A program made the translations under genes and the position numbers. 41,752 nt of DNA from Deltaproteobacteria bacterium (GTDB lineage Bacteria; Myxococcota; B64-G9), in assembly GCA_030622135.1 (NCBI GenBank), contig JAUXGL010000012.1:1-41752 (forward strand), given 5' to 3'. Of this stretch, positions 2,256 through 41,231 are shown piece by piece. The notes under the pieces were generated by a model. It had not been told where the DNA came from and did no database searches. It was given only the letters and a program-made list of their open reading frames with translations. Position 1 is the stretch's first letter, and the number at the start of each line of letters is the position of its first letter.

Positions 2256-4234
2256 TGCAGCTGGAACTGCTGGAGAAGCTGGCGGAAGAGAACCTGGCCG
2301 AGGTCTTCCTGGCTCGCCTTACCTTGGGTGGGACGGCCAGGCTGATTACCGCCCGGCGTTTGCACTCGCGGGTTACGGAGGTGCCGGGTGTCGTCGACGC
2401 GTTGATCGACGCATCCGCCGCGATGAAGTCCGTCGAGCACGGAAACATCCTGCGCCACATGGGATTTGGGGAGGCCGGCGGCGGCCATTACTGGATTACC
2501 GAGAGAACGGATGGTTTCGACCTGGCCATGGCAATCAACCGCCTCGGCTCGCACGATGTGCATATCAATTCGGTTCGCAGCCTGCAAATCGGGCTGGATT
2601 TTCTCCATGGCCTTCAAGCGTTGCATCAGCAGGATCTTTTGCACGGAGGGCTGACCCCCCGGTATGTGTTGTTGGGCTACGATGGCGTGGTTCGCCTGGA
2701 CGGCATCGGTTTCGAAAGTACCCTGTTGGGGATCGGGGATTTGCAGAAGCAATCCCGCCGCCTACGTTCCGACTACCTGGCCCCGGAGGTCGTGCAAGGG
2801 CGCAATCCGGTTCCCCAGTCGGATATCTTTTCGTCGGCCGCAATCATGTATACCCTGCTGACCGGTAGCCCTCCCCTGGATAAAGAAAGCTCCGGTGCCG
2901 GCATGCCGGAGAGGCATTCCCCCATCGAGTTGCCCTCCAAGCGGGATCGCACCCTCCCGTTTTCCTGCGACGCCATCTTCATCAAGGCACTCAGTGCCAC
3001 CCCTCGCCAGCGGCACGATTCGATCGACTCGTTCACCGCCGCGATCAAGCGGCTACGCGCGGCCATGCAGAAGGGCCCCGACGAGGGGCGGGCCGGAGTC
3101 AAGAACTTCGTGGAAAACCTTTATCCCAACGAGGCCATGGTTTGGGGGAAACCGGGCTCCATCGATAAGCCGGCCATGGGCGCGGGCATCTGGTTGAACA
3201 TGCCGCCGAGGGAGGCCAGGGGGGCGACTCCTTCCCCGGCTCCGGTGGTTCCAGAACCTGAGATTCGGGAGCCTTCGGTCCCCGAATCTCAGGCAGCGGA
3301 AGTGCGGGAGCCCGCGACGCGGGAAAAGGCTGACGAAGAGGGCCTGGCCCGGGTGGCTGCCTGGGAAATGGCGTTTGGCACTACGGGCAAGCCGGCGGAT
3401 AAGAAGCAGCAGCCCCCACCGCTTCCCGCGCAGCCTCCGCCGGTGCCGGCGGAGAAGAAGGAGGCCTCGGGTCCCACCTCGGTGGTGGTGGATTGGATGG
3501 GACTGGGGGAGGAGCAGGAGCCCGAGGATACCGAGGAGGTCCGATCCGAAAAGGAGCCCACCCAGGAGGAGCCGGTTACCTCCGAACCGCTTTCTGCCCC
3601 CCCGGTGTCTACGGTTGCGCTGGCGCCGGAAGTGGAAGATCCCACGCCCGTCCCCACGAACGAGATCCCCAGCCTGGTGGAGCCGGAAGAGGAAGAAAAA
3701 ACCGTCGAGGAGATCTCCGCACCAGCCGGCACGATTCAGATGCATCAATCGGCGGAGCCGGGGACACCCACGGATGTGACGGTGCCTGGGAGGAAACCTC
3801 CCCAGAAGATCATGGTGATTCTGTTGGCGGTCGTCGTGGTTGCGGTTCTGGTGGTTGCGTTCTGGCCGAAAGATTGTGGCGAAGCCCAGGATGACGGGGC
3901 GGGGACCTCTTTAGTCGCTTTTTTGTCGGTTCACACCGACCAGCCCGCCCGGGTAACCCTGGACGGGGAATTGCTCGAAGGCGGCACTCCGGTCAGGGAC
4001 AAGGTGCTGCGGGTGGGGGAGCACCGGGTGGTAGTGGATTCCCTGGACGGCACCCGGCTGATGGACGAGGCGATCATGCTGGTGGCCGGGGAACACAAGG
4101 ACATCCGGGTGGTGATTGCCACCGCGCCGGGAGCGGTGGCACCGCCCACCGAAGTCAAAACCGAGAAGCCCACCGGCAAGAAGGTTCGGAAGAAGAAACG
4201 CGTTCGCCGGAAGCGTAGAAGAACCCGTAAATGA
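2255..4234 (+). CDS. protein kinase-fold protein, predicted pseudokinase, with C-terminal TM segment and PEGA-like tail
   Basis: Kinase-like order (HGGLTPRYVLL, YLAPEVV, SDIFSSAAIMYTLLTG) with catalytic residues replaced; TM KIMVILLAVVVVAVLVVAFW; start ATG 2255 overlaps upstream stop. Confidence 0.85.
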   Translation: MQLELLEKLAEENLAEVFLARLTLGGTARLITARRLHSRVTEVPGVVDALIDASAAMKSVEHGNILRHMGFGEAGGGHYWITERTDGFDLAMAINRLGSHDVHINSVRSLQIGLDFLHGLQALHQQDLLHGGLTPRYVLLGYDGVVRLDGIGFESTLLGIGDLQKQSRRLRSDYLAPEVVQGRNPVPQSDIFSSAAIMYTLLTGSPPLDKESSGAGMPERHSPIELPSKRDRTLPFSCDAIFIKALSATPRQRHDSIDSFTAAIKRLRAAMQKGPDEGRAGVKNFVENLYPNEAMVWGKPGSIDKPAMGAGIWLNMPPREARGATPSPAPVVPEPEIREPSVPESQAAEVREPATREKADEEGLARVAAWEMAFGTTGKPADKKQQPPPLPAQPPPVPAEKKEASGPTSVVVDWMGLGEEQEPEDTEEVRSEKEPTQEEPVTSEPLSAPPVSTVALAPEVEDPTPVPTNEIPSLVEPEEEEKTVEEISAPAGTIQMHQSAEPGTPTDVTVPGRKPPQKIMVILLAVVVVAVLVVAFWPKDCGEAQDDGAGTSLVAFLSVHTDQPARVTLDGELLEGGTPVRDKVLRVGEHRVVVDSLDGTRLMDEAIMLVAGEHKDIRVVIATAPGAVAPPTEVKTEKPTGKKVRKKKRVRRKRRRTRK

Positions 4235-30896: not shown

Positions 30897-33125
30897 ATGA
30901 GCGACACGATCCTAGTCTTCGAGTCCACGGGTTCCTGGCCGATCGTGGGTGTCGTCGCGGCGATGGGGGTGGCGGGGTTCCTCGCCTGGTTGGGGCTTTT
31001 GGGGACTATGTCCCGGCGCCGCCGGATGTTTTTGATGACGCTGCGCGGGTTGGCGCTTCTGCTGGTCGGCATGTTGCTGCTCGAGCCGGCCTTGCAGCAG
31101 CGCAAGTTGGAGCCGTTGCAGCGCCGGATGGCCCTGCTGGTGGACGCCTCGGAAAGCATGGGAATTTCAGAGGGTGGCGGCAGCCGGATCGACAAGGTTG
31201 CCGAGTTTCTTCAACAAGAGGAGCGGGCGCTGCAGCAGTTGCGGGACGAGTATTCGGTGGAGACCTACAGCTTCGCTACGCAATTGAATCCCGTGTCGTC
31301 TGAAGAGTTGGGCCGGAGGGCGGACGGGAGTTTTACCGATATTCTCTCGGCCCTGTCCGCCCTGGGAGGGGAATCGGCCGCCCGGCAGAAGGACCTCGCG
31401 GCGATCATCCTGGTGAGCGATGGAGCCGATACCGAGCAACTGAGTCACATTTCTCCCGGCTCGGCCCTACCCGAAGCGGTGCTGGAAACCGTCGAATCCC
31501 TGCAGAGCCCGATCAACACCTTTTCGGTGGGTGGCCGAGACGATTTCGTCGATCTGGCCATATCCGACGTTGCCTTCGACGATTTTGCGTTCATTCGCAA
31601 CGCCGTGGAGGTTGAAGTCACCCTGCAGTCGACCGGGATGGCCGCTGTTTCCGTTCCCGTAGTGCTGGAACAAGGGGGGCGGAACCTGGTCAGCCGGGTG
31701 GTGACGGTGCCGGCGGAGGGAGCCGAGAAGGTGACTCTGCGTTTCGTGCCCGATCGTGTGGGCAAGTTCACCTACCGGGTCGTGGCGCCGGTGATGAACG
31801 GGGAGTCGATCTCGGAAAACAACACGCGCAGCTACGTGGCTCGCGTCATCCGGGACAAGATCCGGGTGCTGCACGTGGTGGGACGGCCGTCCTGGGACCA
31901 GCGTTTCCTCCGGGAGGTGCTGAAGCGGAATCCCAACATCGATCTGGTGAGCTTCTACATCTTGCGTATGCACCTGGATGCACCCGGGGTGAGCGAACAG
32001 GAGCTCAGCTTGATTCCTTTCCCGGTGGCGCAGCTGTTCGCAACGGAGATAGACACGTTCGACGTGGTTATTTTCCAGAACTTCAACCATGCTCCCTATC
32101 AGGTGAGTTTTTACCTGAACCAAGTGGTTCAATACGTTCGCGGCGGCGGGGCGTTTTTCATGATCGGCGGAGACTTGTCTTTCGGAGCCGGCGGCTACGG
32201 ACTGACTCCACTCGATGAAATCTTGCCGGTTCGTCTGCGGGCCGGTTTGGATTTCCGCGTTGACCGGTTCAAAGCCGTCCTCAGCCCCGAAGGCTCCGGC
32301 CATCCGGTCCTCGACCTGGGCCAACCTGGGTTGTGGGAGCGCCTTCCCGAGTTGGAGGGACTCAATCTGGCTTCCGCTCCGGTACCCGATGCTCTGGTCT
32401 TGTTGGTTCACCCGTTTGAGCGCTCCGGTTCAGAGCGTGCGCCCGTCCTGGCCTTGCGGGAGGTGGGCCGCGGCAGGGTCGCCGCGCTGCTGACGGATGG
32501 ATCCTGGCGGTGGAATTTTCTTCACGCGGGCCGGGGTGGCGGCACGCGCCCGTATCACCGTTTCTACAACAACCTGCTGCGCTGGCTCATTCGGGATCCG
32601 GCGCTGGATCCGGTGTTTTTACGTTCCCGCAAGGCCCGCTACGTTCCCGACGAGCCGGTGCAGCTGAAGATCCAGGCTCACGGTGCTTCACCCGCTTCGA
32701 AGGCGGTGGTCAGGTTATACCCGGGCCGGGGAAAGGCAGAGATCGAGCGGCATTCGGTAGAGCTGGACGACCAGGGGAAGGGAGAGATCGAGTTTAAGTC
32801 CCCGGGTACCGGCGCTTTCATTGCGCGCGTCGAGGTGGGTAACCACCAGGCCGAAGAAGCCTTCGTGGTGGAGGGCACCAGCAAGGAACGTTCCAATCCC
32901 GCGCCTCGACCCGACCTCTTGGAGAAGATTGCCAAGGCCACCGGCGGCCGTTTTGGTAGCGTGGAAAAAGGCTCTTTGGCCGGGTTGAGTATCGACTCCG
33001 AAAGGCGTTACCGTGTGGAAGCCAGCACCACCCGGCCCCTGCTTTCCCGTTGGTGGGTGCTGGCCGGCTTGATCGCGTTGCTGGTGGCGGAATGGTGGAT
33101 TCGGAGGTACTGGGGGTTTTGCTAA
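30897..33125 (+). CDS. membrane protein with VWA-like and class I GATase-like regions
   Basis: MALLVDASESMG (MIDAS-like DxSxS); DVVIFQNFNHAPYQ..LNQVVQYVRGGGAFFMIGGDLSFGAGGYGLTPLDEILPV; N- and C-terminal TM helices. Confidence 0.82.
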   Translation: MSDTILVFESTGSWPIVGVVAAMGVAGFLAWLGLLGTMSRRRRMFLMTLRGLALLLVGMLLLEPALQQRKLEPLQRRMALLVDASESMGISEGGGSRIDKVAEFLQQEERALQQLRDEYSVETYSFATQLNPVSSEELGRRADGSFTDILSALSALGGESAARQKDLAAIILVSDGADTEQLSHISPGSALPEAVLETVESLQSPINTFSVGGRDDFVDLAISDVAFDDFAFIRNAVEVEVTLQSTGMAAVSVPVVLEQGGRNLVSRVVTVPAEGAEKVTLRFVPDRVGKFTYRVVAPVMNGESISENNTRSYVARVIRDKIRVLHVVGRPSWDQRFLREVLKRNPNIDLVSFYILRMHLDAPGVSEQELSLIPFPVAQLFATEIDTFDVVIFQNFNHAPYQVSFYLNQVVQYVRGGGAFFMIGGDLSFGAGGYGLTPLDEILPVRLRAGLDFRVDRFKAVLSPEGSGHPVLDLGQPGLWERLPELEGLNLASAPVPDALVLLVHPFERSGSERAPVLALREVGRGRVAALLTDGSWRWNFLHAGRGGGTRPYHRFYNNLLRWLIRDPALDPVFLRSRKARYVPDEPVQLKIQAHGASPASKAVVRLYPGRGKAEIERHSVELDDQGKGEIEFKSPGTGAFIARVEVGNHQAEEAFVVEGTSKERSNPAPRPDLLEKIAKATGGRFGSVEKGSLAGLSIDSERRYRVEASTTRPLLSRWWVLAGLIALLVAEWWIRRYWGFC

Positions 33126-34690
33126 TGCGTGCCCTGGAAATACCGGCACTGGGTGTCTGCATACTCCTTCTGTGCGCGTCGGCGGCCCCAGACGGCGCCG
33201 CGGCGCGGGACGATATCTTTTGCACCGGCCGTCCCATAACTGCCCGGGACGGTACCGCCGCGGGGCTGACCGATTGCGATCTGGAGGTTGCCTGGAAGCG
33301 GGCCGGGTTACGCGCGCGCATGCAAAGATGTGTGCAGGCCGGGCAGGCGGATTCCGATATCTCGTTCGGGTTTGTGCTCTACCCCGGCGGGGGAATCGAA
33401 GACCTGGTGTTCGAACCCGAAAATCCCTGCCTGGAGGCGGTCGTAAAGACACATCTGGCCGGCCCGTCGGAAGGCACGCCCGGATTCGTCGAGGGCCGCC
33501 TGGTTGTTACCGGGGAGAAGCCGGGGAACATTACCCTTACTCTTACCGGCTGGCTGTATCCAAGGAGATCGCCCGTGGTGGTCTTGCCGGGGTGTCTGGT
33601 CCCGGAGGGCGACGGCTACACGTCCACCTGCCCGCTGGGTTCGGCCCATCTGGCGCTGCGCCTGGGTTCCCCGTCGGGTTCGGCCGGGGTCAATACCTCC
33701 TTCGACCAGGCAGCGGAGGATCTGGTCGATCGGTGCGAGCAGAACATTCAGGCGGGCGGCTGGGAGACGTGGACCCGTGCGGACTGGAAACGGGAGAGGG
33801 AAAAGTCCTGCAAATGCTTGATCGGGCGGTTGGGTCACGAAAAGCTCGAGGTCCGGGGGCGGGCGGCCGAGAGACTGGCGCAGGGACGCTACTGGAAGGG
33901 GCGCCGGGCGCTTACGGCGGTCGTGAAAGAAATGATGAAGCCGCCGGGATGCCGAAACGGTGCGGAATGCCGGCCGGTCGGGCCGAAGGATACCGAGGCG
34001 GGGCTGGTGCTGGTGCGCATGGTTCGGGCACATTTGCGATTGCGGCGTTGGGTAAAGGACGAGTACCTGGAGGCCCTGGCTCGGCATCCCGCCAGGCAGG
34101 TTCGCCTGCACCTGGTCCGCGACATTTTAAAAAACTGGCGGAGTGGCCTGCCCCCCGCCCTCGGGATTCTGTACCACGATCCCGATCCCGTCGTCCGCGC
34201 GCGGGCATGTGACATCGGGTGCCAGCGGGAGGACCGCGCCGGCCGCGAGGAGTTCCTAAAGAGGCTGATGCATCCCCGGGCGGAGATCCGAGCCGCGACC
34301 ATCATGTATGCGGGTAGCTGTGTGGAGAAATCCAGCCGGCAGGTCCGTGAACATGTTCGCCAAGAAGCGGATTTGGCCGTGGTCCTGCTGATGTTGCAGG
34401 CGCTGCCCGTCGCGCCCGAGCCCTTGGTTGCCCAACGGGTCGTAAAGGCTCTTTTCGATCCCTGCCCGATCGTGCGGTTCCTGGCGGGAAGGCTGTTGAG
34501 AAACGCAAAATCGCTGCCCACCGAGGCGGTCAAGCAGGCACTCGCCCGCGAGCCCAATGTCGCCCTGAAAGAACAGCTCGTGGATCTCCTCGGGCGCGGG
34601 GGTCTGCCCCCCAGTGCCCGCCACCGCCTGCAGATCTGGCTTCAGTTCGACAGGGGAGAGAACTCCTCCGAACCGAAGAGTTCCAGATAG
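33125..34690 (+). CDS. HEAT-repeat-like secreted protein
   Basis: Signal peptide MRALEIPALGVCILLLCASAAPDGAAA; helical repeats HPARQVRLHLVRDIL, DPVVRARACDIGC, HPRAEIRAATIMYAG; ATG overlaps upstream stop. Confidence 0.75.
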   Translation: MRALEIPALGVCILLLCASAAPDGAAARDDIFCTGRPITARDGTAAGLTDCDLEVAWKRAGLRARMQRCVQAGQADSDISFGFVLYPGGGIEDLVFEPENPCLEAVVKTHLAGPSEGTPGFVEGRLVVTGEKPGNITLTLTGWLYPRRSPVVVLPGCLVPEGDGYTSTCPLGSAHLALRLGSPSGSAGVNTSFDQAAEDLVDRCEQNIQAGGWETWTRADWKREREKSCKCLIGRLGHEKLEVRGRAAERLAQGRYWKGRRALTAVVKEMMKPPGCRNGAECRPVGPKDTEAGLVLVRMVRAHLRLRRWVKDEYLEALARHPARQVRLHLVRDILKNWRSGLPPALGILYHDPDPVVRARACDIGCQREDRAGREEFLKRLMHPRAEIRAATIMYAGSCVEKSSRQVREHVRQEADLAVVLLMLQALPVAPEPLVAQRVVKALFDPCPIVRFLAGRLLRNAKSLPTEAVKQALAREPNVALKEQLVDLLGRGGLPPSARHRLQIWLQFDRGENSSEPKSSR

Positions 34691-34693
34691 TCC
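34617..34693. repeat. 77-bp direct repeat, left copy (overlaps end of HEAT gene)
   Basis: 73/77 identical to 37813-37889. Confidence 0.9.
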
Positions 34694-34862
34694 CTTGAAG
34701 CCCCTACTACTTGAAGCCGCAAAATGTAGTTTTCCTCTGGGGAATAGTGTTATGCTAGCTTGACACTTTTGAGGTTTCGATCACACGATGGCGATCAGTC
34801 TGAGCGGAATTTATTCCAAACAAATTAGTTAGTTAATAAAAAACGACCACCGTACGCACCGG

Positions 34863-34880
34863 TTGGCACGGAAATTGCGA
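34863..34880 (+). promoter_or_regulatory. sigma-54 (-24/-12) promoter
   Basis: TTGGCACGGAAATTGCGA; GG 34865-34866 and GC 34877-34878 with 10-nt spacing. Confidence 0.65.
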
Positions 34881-35108
34881 ATCACAAGGGCGAAATGAAG
34901 ATATCCACAACCCATGCAAGTAGACTCTTCGTTCGTAACTTTTTAGCATCTTGCGAAGATCTTCGGAGGGTGCAAATGGTACTTCAAGTCCTGCGCGGGT
35001 CATTCCAACCAGATCCTGACGCCGTAGACTTTTCTTGTAGTACCCCAAAACATGTTGACCCGGGTCCGTACGGGTTGCGGGTTTCAGCCCCGGGCTCAGG
35101 AGGCCGTC

Positions 35109-37727
35109 ATGGTTCGTTCGCCTGACTCTTTGTTGCGTCCCTTTGCGCTGATTGTCGCCATGCTGTTGCTCGCCGGTTGCGGATCCGACTCCGGAGGGTC
35201 GGGTGGGGGCGATGGGGGGCTGGACGGAGGCGACGGACAGACCGGAGACGGGGACTGCCCCACTGGGATCCTGTGCGGGCCGTTTGAAGAGTGCTGTGCC
35301 GAGGGAACCGAATGCGTCAACAACAAGGTCTGTCTTCCCATCTGTGAGAATGTCCGTTGCGGAGGGGACTTGACGGTGTGCTGTGCCGTGGGAACCGAAT
35401 GCGTCAACGACATGGCCTGCCTTCCCATCTGTGAGAATGTCCGTTGCGGGGAGAACTTGACGGTGTGCTGCGAAGCCGGTGAGATCTGTCTGGACGGGGT
35501 ATGGTGCGCCGTGGACTGTGGTCCGACCGAGGTTCTCTGCGGCGCCGGTTTGGATATCTGCTGCAATGCGGGAGACGTGTGCCTTTACGACGCGTGCGTG
35601 ACTCCCGGGGACACCTGCGATAACAACTTCGATTGCCTGGACGACGGTTGGTACTGCGAGTCGACCATCGGGCGGTGTCTGCCGCTGCCGATCGGGCCCC
35701 TGTGCGAGGGGGAACCGCAGTTCAGCGACATCGAACCGGTTCTGGAATGGTACTGGCCGGGCATTTCCTACGGCGGGTTCTACTATCAGAACATTATGGT
35801 CTCCCCGGCCGTGGGCGACGTGAACGGCGACGGAGTGCCGGACGTGGTGGTCGTGGTCTATCATGACTCTTCTTACGCTACCAATAATCTGATCGTGGTT
35901 CTGAACGGGGAGGGGGACGGGCAGGGCAACGGGCAGGTGCTGTTCACCATTCCGTCCGCGGCCGATCCGGCTGCGCCCATGGCCTGCGGCTCTTCGTCCG
36001 TGGCGTTGGGCAACTTTGACGCCGATCCCGGGCTGGAGATCGTTTACAACATGGTCGGCGGGGGGATACGGATCGCGGACAACGACGGCGTCGGCGATGT
36101 CTGCGGCGCCACCAACTACCCGGGCTGCTCCGGTGTGCGTATCACCGGAAGTGGGGCTGCCACCGTCATCGTAGGTGGTCCGTCAGTGGCCGACCTTGAC
36201 CACGACTCGATGCCCGATATTGTGATCCGCTGTCAGGCCCTGAACGGGCACGACATCAGCGACCCCGCAATGGATTTCATGGATGTGGCGGGTTGCGAGT
36301 ACAACACCGTGGTGGCGGACCTGGACCAGGACCTGCGACCGGAAATAATCGATGCCTCCCATGCCGTGACGGCCGATCCCAACATCCCCGGCGGCCAGCC
36401 CCTGTGGACCACTGCCAATGGGCAGACGTCTGGTTTTGTGGCAGTGGCCGACATTCTTCCGGACAACCCCGGACCCGAGGTGATCAATATCTGTTTTGGC
36501 TTCTTCCTGCTGGACGGGCAGACGGGTGCCGTGCTCGTCGGTCCAGGCGGCACGGTACTAGACGCGTCCATTCCCATTCCGGGCGGGGGTACGGGGGGCG
36601 CACCCACGGTGGCGGATTTCGACGGGGACGGATTTCCGGAGGTTTCCACCGCGGGTACGGCCGCTTACGTGGTCTATGACCCGGACTGCACCGATCCGCC
36701 CATCCGGGGCGGTCAGTGCGATAGCGGCACGACGGATTTCATGTTGTGGACGACCTCCACCCAGGACTTCAGCAGCAGCTGCACGGGCTCAAGCGTTTTC
36801 GATTTTCAGGGAGACGGTCCGGCGGAGGTGCTCTACAACGACGAGTGCTTTTTACATATCTACGACGGGCTGACCGGAGCCGAGTTGGTGAACCCGGTTA
36901 TCCCGAACTCGTCCCGTACCTGGGCCGAGTACCCCCTGGTGGCGGACGTTGACGGTGACGGGAACGCGGAAATGATCGTCATTTCCAACGAGGACAAGGC
37001 CATAAGCCGAGACAACTGCCACATCTCCTGGAAGGACGCTAACGTGCCCATTGATTGGCTGTGCCAGTACACCGTTTGTACGATCGGTCCGGCCTGCACC
37101 GGCGGCATCGGCGGAACCTGCAGTGGTGTAGGGTATCAGTGCGACGCCGCCGGCATCTGTCATCGGCCCGGCGGAACCCACGGGGTACGCATCTACGGCG
37201 ACCTGAACGATCGATGGGTCAAAACCAGGCCCGTGTGGAACCAGTTTTCCTATCACGTCACCAACATCGAGTTCGCGGGGGGTTGGTGGAACGTGCCGGA
37301 CGTGGAAGTGGACAACTGGACCGTGTACAATAACTATCGACAGAATGTGCAGGGCGGAGCGTTGTTCCCGGTGCCCGACCTTCAGGTGGAGTTGACCGCC
37401 ACGCCCATCTGTCCCTCCGAGGTGCGGTTGGCCGCCGTGGTGCGCAACGAGGGAAGCGCCGGCGCCCTTCCCGTTTTCGAGGTAAGGTTTTACCGCACGG
37501 ACACCGGGGTTCCGAACCCGCCGGAGTTGCTGGGCACGGTGTTCCCGTCCGGTCCGCTTCTTCCGGGCGGTTGGGACCGGCTTACGCTGGTGTACAACAT
37601 TCCGGCCACGGATGTGGACATGACCTTTTCGGTCGTCCTGGATGAGGATGGGGTGATGGAGGAGTGCGAAGAGGGCAACAACGGTGCAGACAGCGCCACG
37701 GTGTACTGCCCCGGCCCAGTCCTATAG
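35109..37727 (+). CDS. secreted lipoprotein-like surface protein: Cys-rich tandem modules, FG-GAP/VCBS-like repeats, C-terminal CARDB-like domain
   Basis: lipobox LLAGCG; ECCAEGTECVNNKVCLPICENVRCG repeats; DVNGDGVPDVVVV, DLDHDSMPDIVIR, DFDGDGFPEVS; C-terminal LQVELTATPICPSEVRLAAVVRNEGSAG. Confidence 0.85.
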   Translation: MVRSPDSLLRPFALIVAMLLLAGCGSDSGGSGGGDGGLDGGDGQTGDGDCPTGILCGPFEECCAEGTECVNNKVCLPICENVRCGGDLTVCCAVGTECVNDMACLPICENVRCGENLTVCCEAGEICLDGVWCAVDCGPTEVLCGAGLDICCNAGDVCLYDACVTPGDTCDNNFDCLDDGWYCESTIGRCLPLPIGPLCEGEPQFSDIEPVLEWYWPGISYGGFYYQNIMVSPAVGDVNGDGVPDVVVVVYHDSSYATNNLIVVLNGEGDGQGNGQVLFTIPSAADPAAPMACGSSSVALGNFDADPGLEIVYNMVGGGIRIADNDGVGDVCGATNYPGCSGVRITGSGAATVIVGGPSVADLDHDSMPDIVIRCQALNGHDISDPAMDFMDVAGCEYNTVVADLDQDLRPEIIDASHAVTADPNIPGGQPLWTTANGQTSGFVAVADILPDNPGPEVINICFGFFLLDGQTGAVLVGPGGTVLDASIPIPGGGTGGAPTVADFDGDGFPEVSTAGTAAYVVYDPDCTDPPIRGGQCDSGTTDFMLWTTSTQDFSSSCTGSSVFDFQGDGPAEVLYNDECFLHIYDGLTGAELVNPVIPNSSRTWAEYPLVADVDGDGNAEMIVISNEDKAISRDNCHISWKDANVPIDWLCQYTVCTIGPACTGGIGGTCSGVGYQCDAAGICHRPGGTHGVRIYGDLNDRWVKTRPVWNQFSYHVTNIEFAGGWWNVPDVEVDNWTVYNNYRQNVQGGALFPVPDLQVELTATPICPSEVRLAAVVRNEGSAGALPVFEVRFYRTDTGVPNPPELLGTVFPSGPLLPGGWDRLTLVYNIPATDVDMTFSVVLDEDGVMEECEEGNNGADSATVYCPGPVL

Positions 37728-37730
37728 CGA

Positions 37731-37814
37731 GGAATGGGGTCGGGTCTGGTCACTTGCCCCTTATCCTGTGCAAGAAAGTGCTCGATCCAACCCTTCACCT
37801 TCCGACCCCATTCC
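37731..37814. repeat. inverted-repeat element (REPIN/MITE-like), copy B
   Basis: GGAATGGGGTCGG...CCGACCCCATTCC perfect 13-bp termini; shares core TGCAAGAAAG(T/C)GCTCGATCCAACCCTTCACCTT with copy A. Confidence 0.75.
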
Positions 37815-37889
37815 CGCCACCGCCTGCAGATCTGGCTTCAGCTCGAAAGGGGAGAGAACTCCTCCGGACCGAAGAGATCCAGATAGTCC
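37813..37889. repeat. 77-bp direct repeat, right copy (3' end of the radical SAM gene)
   Basis: 73/77 identical to 34617-34693. Confidence 0.9.
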
Positions 37890-38731
37890 TTGCGCGGGCC
37901 CAGGCAGTTCGATCTCATACCGCAGCCGCTACAGGTTTTTAGATATGCTCCGCCTTCGATTGGGGATTCTTCGGCCGAGAAAGGTTCCGATCCGGGCGTG
38001 ATTACCGAGAGTTTCCAGGTTCCCGCGTGCACGTAGCGCCGGCGGTACTCCGGCTTCAGCACGCATGGGGGCGTATGCAACGTGGTTGCCGCCGCCCCGT
38101 TCCGGTCGGCGGTTTGGAAGGCCGACTCCAGGAAAGGCATCAGATCGGCCATCCGGGGCACCAGGGGCTCGAGGCCTTTTGCCTGTGTGCCGAACAGGGA
38201 GGTCAACCAGAAGGTGAACCGGCCCACGCCCAGCCCGGCGAAGCGCAGGACCGCGTCGGCCAGTCGGGTCATGGAGTGAGAGGTGATCAGGATGTCCCCC
38301 TCCACCCGGGCGTCCGTGGCCACCAGGTTTTGGGTTCCCTGGATCAACCGGTCGAAGGAGCCGGGGTTCTGGGTGGCCTGGTCATGGCTTGCGGCGTCCG
38401 CGCCCTTGATGGAGAGGGAGAACTCGTTGGCACCCGCGTCCAGGCAGCGTCGGGTGAAGGGCAGATAGGCGCAGCGGATCCCGTTGGTCTGGATGCGGAT
38501 CCGGTGGTAGCCGAGCTCGCGGGCGCGCTCGATGGACCGGATCAGGTCGGGGTGCAGGGTGGGCTCTCCGCCTCCGAACCACACGTGCTTCGCGCCGCGC
38601 TCCCGGCCCTCCTCCAGCCAGTGGGCGATCTCTTTGGCGCTCATGCCGGGCACATGCGACTGGGAGGCCGCGGGGCAGACCCGGCACCGGCAGTTACACC
38701 CGAAGCCGACGACGATCTCGATCCAGTCCAT
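37838..38731 (-). CDS. radical SAM protein
   Basis: MDWIEIVVGFGCNCRCRVCPAAS (CX3CX2C); WFGGGEPTLHPDLIRSIERARELG; C-terminal extra cysteines CSGCGMRSNCLG. Confidence 0.92.
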   Translation of the reverse strand: MDWIEIVVGFGCNCRCRVCPAASQSHVPGMSAKEIAHWLEEGRERGAKHVWFGGGEPTLHPDLIRSIERARELGYHRIRIQTNGIRCAYLPFTRRCLDAGANEFSLSIKGADAASHDQATQNPGSFDRLIQGTQNLVATDARVEGDILITSHSMTRLADAVLRFAGLGVGRFTFWLTSLFGTQAKGLEPLVPRMADLMPFLESAFQTADRNGAAATTLHTPPCVLKPEYRRRYVHAGTWKLSVITPGSEPFSAEESPIEGGAYLKTCSGCGMRSNCLGPRKDYLDLFGPEEFSPLSS

Positions 38732-40817: not shown

Positions 40818-41231
40818 CTACGCTGCAACCCAATGACCCACGCAGTACTCAGAAAATCTTCGCGGGCCGCGGAGATTCTCGGGGTCAGTAGTATAGATGG
40901 TGCCGTAGTCGGGATGGTGGATCAGCTCCAGTTCCATTTTATTGCCACAGTTGGGGCAGCGCAGGGGATCGGCCCCGAATGAATCGAAGAATAGTTGGCA
41001 AAACGGCTTGCGAGGGGCCACACGATAGCCGAGGGGATCGACGGGAGCATTGGTCGGAAGGATGGCTGCGAGTTGGCTTCTCATTTTTTCGTAGCGGACG
41101 TTGCCGTGCAGGCCGTAGTAGCGAATCCGCTGGAATCTTTTGGGGAGGATGTGCTGAACCATGCGTCCGATGAAGCGGAGCGCCGGCAGGTTCTCGTGTT
41201 GAAGGTGGGCTGTTAGGTCAGGTGCGCCTCC
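40818..41231 (-). pseudogene. C-terminal remnant of IS91-type transposase
   Basis: LTAHLQHENLPALRFIGRMVQHILPKRFQRIRYYGLHGNVRYEKM...DPLRCPNCGNKMELELI; upstream in-frame TGA, no N-terminal catalytic region. Confidence 0.7.

Follow-up and report, generated by a model that had tools for sequence, protein, structure and literature searches.

Convergent genes that overlap are regarded as locked to each other: any insertion there would disrupt both. In the window analyzed here, a 41,752-nucleotide stretch of a myxobacterium-like genome (contig JAUXGL010000012.1 of assembly GCA_030622135.1), two convergent genes encoding a HEAT-repeat protein and a radical SAM (RSAM) protein are separated by a segment of about 3.1 kb, which is bracketed by 77-bp direct repeats and carries a single gene. 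How did this gene come to lie between them while both neighbours stayed intact? The features of the locus are as follows.

33125..34690, + strand: HEAT-repeat gene; last 24 codons inside the left repeat; open reading frame open from 33050, start provisional
34617..34693: left junction repeat, 77 bp; functional HEAT end and remnant RSAM end (DYLELFGSEEFSPLSN*)
34642..34690: 49-bp ancestral HEAT/RSAM overlap, left copy, from RSAM stop to HEAT stop
34694..37812, + strand: inserted segment, about 3.1 kb; absent between HEAT and RSAM in relative G002, other genes there in relative G005
34743..34923, + strand: promoter region, 77% like the sequences that precede genes on C109 and C81
34864..34879, + strand: putative sigma-54-type promoter TGGCACGGAAATTGCG (TGGCAC-N5-TTGC), by consensus match only
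34920..35004, + strand: 5' part of a dispersed structured element, 85 bp; many copies, own genome only
35109..37727, + strand: gene for a Cys-rich/FG-GAP/CARDB lipoprotein-like surface protein (FG); open reading frame open from 35052
37730..37815: internally deleted REPIN-like element bounded by the inverted repeat AGGAATGGGGTCGG/CCGACCCCATTCC; its outer end borders on the right repeat
37813..37889: right junction repeat, 77 bp; functional RSAM end and remnant HEAT tail
37838..37886: 49-bp ancestral overlap, right copy
37838..38731, - strand: radical SAM gene, PF04055 match

Each repeat copy contains the whole HEAT/RSAM junction

The two copies are in direct orientation and identical at 73/77 positions without gaps (blastn E ~1e-30 in a 356-kb sample), the left/right mismatches being T/C at 34646/37842, C/A at 34651/37847, A/G at 34671/37867 and T/A at 34681/37877. 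Our alignment agrees with the initial annotation on the coordinates and the four mismatches, and also on its reading of the left copy in the RSAM frame, where we find one silent change and three amino-acid changes (D->E, P->S, S->N). No third copy of the 77-mer was found in the 4.79-Mb genome, a draft of 280 contigs. With just two copies, a multicopy mobile repeat was rejected.

On the minus strand, RSAM ends KDYLDLFGPEEFSPLSS in the right copy and its remnant reads RDYLELFGSEEFSPLSN in the left copy; on the plus strand, HEAT ends ARHRLQIWLQFDRGENSSEPKSSR in the left copy and its frame is still open in the right copy (SRHRLQIWLQLERGENSSGPKRSR). The right copy had initially been read as the 3' end of the RSAM gene. 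RSAM does end there, but the HEAT frame is retained as well, so each copy represents the entire HEAT/RSAM junction and not the RSAM 3' end alone. The right copy even includes HEAT codons past the RSAM stop, which have no role at that place. In the 77-bp unit the 49-bp overlap is extended by 25 bp towards HEAT and by 3 bp towards RSAM, with boundaries 3 bp beyond the HEAT stop and 25 bp beyond the RSAM stop. The HEAT stop itself (34688-34690 and 37884-37886) is the antisense of conserved RSAM Asp-Tyr codons, a motif that therefore always places TAG or TAA in the reading frame of HEAT; the corresponding codon in G002 is TAA.

The ancestral junction in relatives

The protein identities proposed earlier were borne out by Pfam matches: PF13646 for HEAT, PF04055 for RSAM and PF13517 for the FG-GAP gene. 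HEAT orthologues were found in 8 genomes of the family. In G002, which belongs to the same family (record QMME01000165), HEAT and RSAM are adjacent and convergent with a 43-bp overlap and no intervening gene; in stretch L063 HEAT ends at 3968 (+) and RSAM at 3926 (-). The junction sequences of G002 and the window can be aligned across the overlap, so that G002 holds an orthologous single-copy junction without the insert. Since its pair is overlapping and convergent, the ancestral junction would have been an overlapping gene pair. The earlier proposal that a convergent HEAT/RSAM pair was split by insertion is thereby strengthened, and the suggested search for a relative with both genes adjacent and lacking the insert led to this genome. 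G002 is distant from the window genome (RSAM 47%, HEAT 27%), hence a single-step insertion is neither dated nor directly shown by it.

By RSAM identity the nearest relative is G005, where HEAT and RSAM are separated by three other genes (L062:2439-5967), which we take by eye to be MopE-like, acyl-CoA dehydrogenase-like and YkuD-like. The HEAT tail is cut (LQLWLQLKP*) and no repeat was found at this HEAT/RSAM junction. The genes in between differ, so the junction took separate insertions in two lineages. The two genes were not found together in the other family genomes, and no FG homologue was found near HEAT or RSAM at the loci of 8 relatives. Two findings that would have spoken against an insertion were thus not obtained. 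No relative had the gene order of the window without its repeat, G005 having other genes at the repeat-free junction. Likewise, no decayed full RSAM paralog was detectable to the right of the left copy, where RSAM similarity did not rise above shuffles, and decay of such a paralog was rejected.

The inserted segment and its REPIN-like element

The only coding sequence of the insert is the gene with the FG-GAP/CARDB matches, and no integrase or recombinase was found within the segment. A search for terminal inverted repeats of the insert and an Rfam search of the region were both negative. The FG-GAP protein has no PADLOC match and the insert is not a restriction-modification system. Paralogues of the gene occur at five loci (C80, C43, C58, C35 and C166), with no second FG copy close to the window locus. 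Third-position GC of the segment is 0.77, equal to that of its neighbours, so the segment looks native and not recently foreign. The Cys-rich part of the gene contains an 87-bp tandem duplication (91%, 35291-35470).

Upstream of the gene, the previously noted sigma-54 promoter was found again as a consensus match (TGGCAC-N5-TTGC) at 34864-34878. The region around it (34743-34879) is common to the genes on C109 and C81, pointing to a possible regulon of lipoprotein or surface-protein genes. The adjoining dispersed structured element (34920-35004; also L134:1501-1612, L163:247-290 and others) often lies just upstream of start codons. It has at least 41 matches in its own genome, none in the 9 relatives searched and no Rfam match. 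Its two variants have a common 3' half (GAGTnCTGCGCGGGTCATT..GGTTGCGGC.GAGCCGCGCTG) and 5' arms that, by eye, covary between them (AGACTC..GAGTCC vs GTACT..AGTAC), which makes the element a candidate for a new cis-RNA or MITE. A separate repeated motif of 25-34 bp (TCCAACCAGATCCTGACGCCGTAGA) follows at 35004-35035 and is found elsewhere, for example on C139, C140, C66 and C248. Outside the repeats, an open reading frame at 39490-40263 matches RAMA and DUF2924, and GIY-YIG weakly, and adjoins the RSAM and outer-membrane protein genes. A minus-strand frame at 40818-41162, presumably the C-terminus of an IS91-type transposase judging by its resemblance, has no Pfam match.

At the right end of the segment, the element initially described as REPIN-like proved to have about 16 better copies elsewhere in the genome (34 blast matches). 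Its inverted ends are multicopy, as in REPINs, and some copies run into a reading that resembles a Y1 transposase (RAYT), from the motif MPNHYHLL read by eye. In the copy at 37730-37815 the right REP is reduced to 13 bp. The outer end CCCCATTCCC joins the right repeat with 3 bp in common, the HEAT sequence at the corresponding position being CCCCAGTGCCC. A second, nearly full-length REPIN-like copy lies in the window at 259-398.

Similar events elsewhere in the genome

We surveyed local two-copy repeats in ~1.5 Mb (about a third) of the same genome, using slightly overlapping stretches, part of which had been picked for REPIN neighbourhoods. The event list excludes pairs at contig ends and a MITE-like pair on C81. 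Overall, about nine further local two-copy direct repeats were found beyond the window pair. Five pairs, the window included, are 59-77 bp long and spaced 1.7-4.7 kb (window, C107, C119, C209 and C229); longer pairs measure 155 bp on C255 and 617 bp (95%) on C258. On C61, C74 and C42, each leftover is split into two separate pieces of the intact neighbour gene, as though the middle of a longer copy had been deleted. All ten events are direct, and inverted pairs were few in this survey. Repeat length ranges from 59 to 617 bp across the candidate events, and the repeats at different loci are unrelated sequences, each from its own target. Applied to 0.4 Mb of G001, this search yielded one or two doubtful pairs; applied to 0.4 Mb of E. 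coli K-12, it yielded no two-copy pair. A uniform, transposon-like target duplication of ~60-80 bp was rejected, because the composite leftovers and the 155- and 617-bp cases show variable length.

For two further events, C107 and C229, relatives show the genes adjacent, that is, an empty site. On C107, a 67-bp repeat surrounds a ParA-like and an SLFN/AlbA_2 gene (L164:11872-14042), which are flanked by genes for an M2/M3-type peptidase and an S2P protease; the repeat begins at the peptidase stop codon and extends over the final 20 codons of the gene for the protease. In G004, G006 and G001 these peptidase and protease genes are convergent and lie 11-35 bp apart in alignments. The ParA-like and SLFN/AlbA_2-HATPase pair is weakly similar to Argonaute-associated PADLOC models and may possibly be a defence pair. 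On C229, a 64-bp repeat comprises the final 13 codons of gene Y (S1 domain), a short gap and the start codon of a gene that we take by eye to encode an acetyl-CoA synthetase (ACS); in G003, Y and ACS are 27 bp apart. The inserted gene encodes a lipoprotein (PF00932) and directly precedes Y in G006 and G004, so that duplication and loss explains C229 best. The feature common to the window, C107 and C229 is that the repeat unit covers the entire ancestral junction and both neighbours are intact.

A repeat edge lies no more than 8 bp from a REP end in 2/10 events (window and C107), while 4/2000 random shifts reached two; we regard this as suggestive at most, since two events are involved and the stretches were partly chosen for REPs. 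The 617-bp (95%) duplication contains a gene for an HTH protein and a downstream 176-aa open reading frame (L255:3052-3927), presumably toxin-antitoxin-like by eye, with no PADLOC match for the pair.

Proposed mechanism and rival explanations

Our preferred reading, to which we assign a probability of roughly 0.6, is an insertion with long target duplication that arose illegitimately, probably by template switching, and was retained because both gene ends were preserved. HEAT (+) and RSAM (-) would have been convergent in the ancestor, with an overlap of ~49 bp. A native-looking segment of 3.1 kb with promoter, FG-GAP gene and REPIN would then have been joined into their junction, illegitimately and without a transposase, and the same event would have copied at least 77 bp of the target. 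From then on HEAT would use the left copy and RSAM the right copy, each with a private 3' end; as the duplication covers the whole overlap, neither gene would be broken. The joining step could be a microhomology-mediated template switch or break-repair, with the right join probably formed at the REPIN outer end, CCCCATTCCC against CCCCAGTGCCC in HEAT. The original duplication may have exceeded 77 bp and been shortened afterwards to little more than what both genes require, and selection may have kept solely those events that preserved the overlap. No Ku gene was matched in the genome (93% complete), so a simple NHEJ fill-in is unlikely, and we discarded it. A cut-and-paste transposon was also discarded, given the lack of terminal inverted repeats and a duplication of 77 bp, far above the usual 2-14 bp.

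An unlikely, though credible, alternative is a tandem duplication followed by reciprocal loss, whereby FG and part of HEAT-RSAM were duplicated with a new joint at the REPIN and the redundant copies were deleted, their short leftovers being the direct repeats. Exactly as this predicts, the order lipo-Y-ACS of G006 and G004 became Y-lipo-(Y end)-ACS on C229. The leftovers on C61, C74 and C42 can be read as eroded longer copies of the intact neighbour gene and the C258 duplication as possibly an earlier stage. It would also fit that local repeats are almost all direct and that REPs mark duplication junctions (PMC3161906). At the window locus, however, this route requires one duplication and two losses, and the 8 relatives have no FG homologue near either gene; nor were further RSAM, HEAT or FG remnants detectable above shuffles around the repeat. 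The 5% difference between the copies, as strain alleles might show, would suit single-crossover integration of a circle carrying FG and a junction copy from a sister strain, a route proposed for Arabidopsis transposed genes with flanking target-homologous repeats (PMC2869330). Yet homologous recombination would work poorly on 77 bp that include 4 mismatches, the junction has no other copy in the genome, and divergence after duplication explains the 4 changes, making a circle quite improbable.

The initial annotation had likened the layout to site-specific integration at a gene 3' end (attL/attR), and it does resemble islands in such ends. This comparison was not supported: no recombinase was identified, the 77-mer is unique, and the repeats of the other loci share no sequence, although one enzyme acting on all of them would require a shared site. 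We consider such integration extremely improbable. An assembly artefact could be imagined in a draft of 280 contigs but is very improbable, as the copies differ at 4 positions in ways that make sense for each gene, no long exact k-mer is shared at the joins and all genes are intact.

Returning to insertion with target duplication, the locus suggests how a lineage may escape the lock of an overlap, because duplication of the overlap upon insertion leaves each gene with an end of its own. It is doubtful, but conceivable, that an unrecognised process is active in this lineage which inserts genes between adjacent gene ends, copies the junction in full (59-77 bp in five events), uses REPIN/RAYT ends as joining points and moves surface-protein and defence-like genes with the neighbours left unbroken. 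Several similar events in one uncultured myxobacterium-like genome, with the empty junction in relatives for three, form a testable set that bears on transposase-free insertion of accessory genes and on REPs as joining points.

Comparison with known systems

Genomic islands inserted in gene 3' ends by tyrosine integrases regenerate that end and leave a remnant at the far end. The window has the same regenerated 3' end and far remnant, but no integrase and no common att site. Tandem duplication-random loss, a process familiar chiefly from mitochondrial genomes (e.g. PMC3283314), resembles this genome in the short leftovers of lost copies and in the altered gene order on C229, whereas at the window locus no trace of lost copies was detectable beyond the 77 bp. 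Arabidopsis transposed single genes are flanked by direct repeats that are single at the orthologous target, and one such repeat is a neighbour gene's 3' end (PMC2869330). The repeats are likewise drawn from the target in the window, but the Arabidopsis case concerns a eukaryote and circle integration was proposed for it.

REP-type sequences are known breakpoint hotspots: in starving E. coli, 22/90 novel junctions lay at REP sequences, most of them too short to serve in homologous recombination, microhomology was present at all sequenced amplicon junctions, and partly deleted duplications arose via two template switches (PMC3161906). Joins at REPs, short microhomology and partly deleted duplications are also what the proposed window event would involve, with the difference that the E. 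coli junctions are laboratory amplifications and the window represents an old fixed event.

The closest likeness is with Helicobacter. As recounted in later papers (PMC1643837, PMC3031569, PMC3154945), Nobusato et al. (2000, Gene 259:99) originally described insertion with long target duplication, mainly for restriction-modification genes, in two H. pylori genomes. The target duplications around the inserted genes are long and variable there (PMC3031569, PMC1643837). Common to this class and the window are accessory gene(s), a long variable direct target duplication, no transposase or inverted ends, and an empty site in relatives. The window locus fits the class by every feature tested except the type of gene carried. 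Such insertion is already known from Helicobacter; what differs here is the carried gene, which encodes a surface protein instead of a restriction-modification system, the target, which is an overlapping convergent gene pair, and the one join at a REPIN end.
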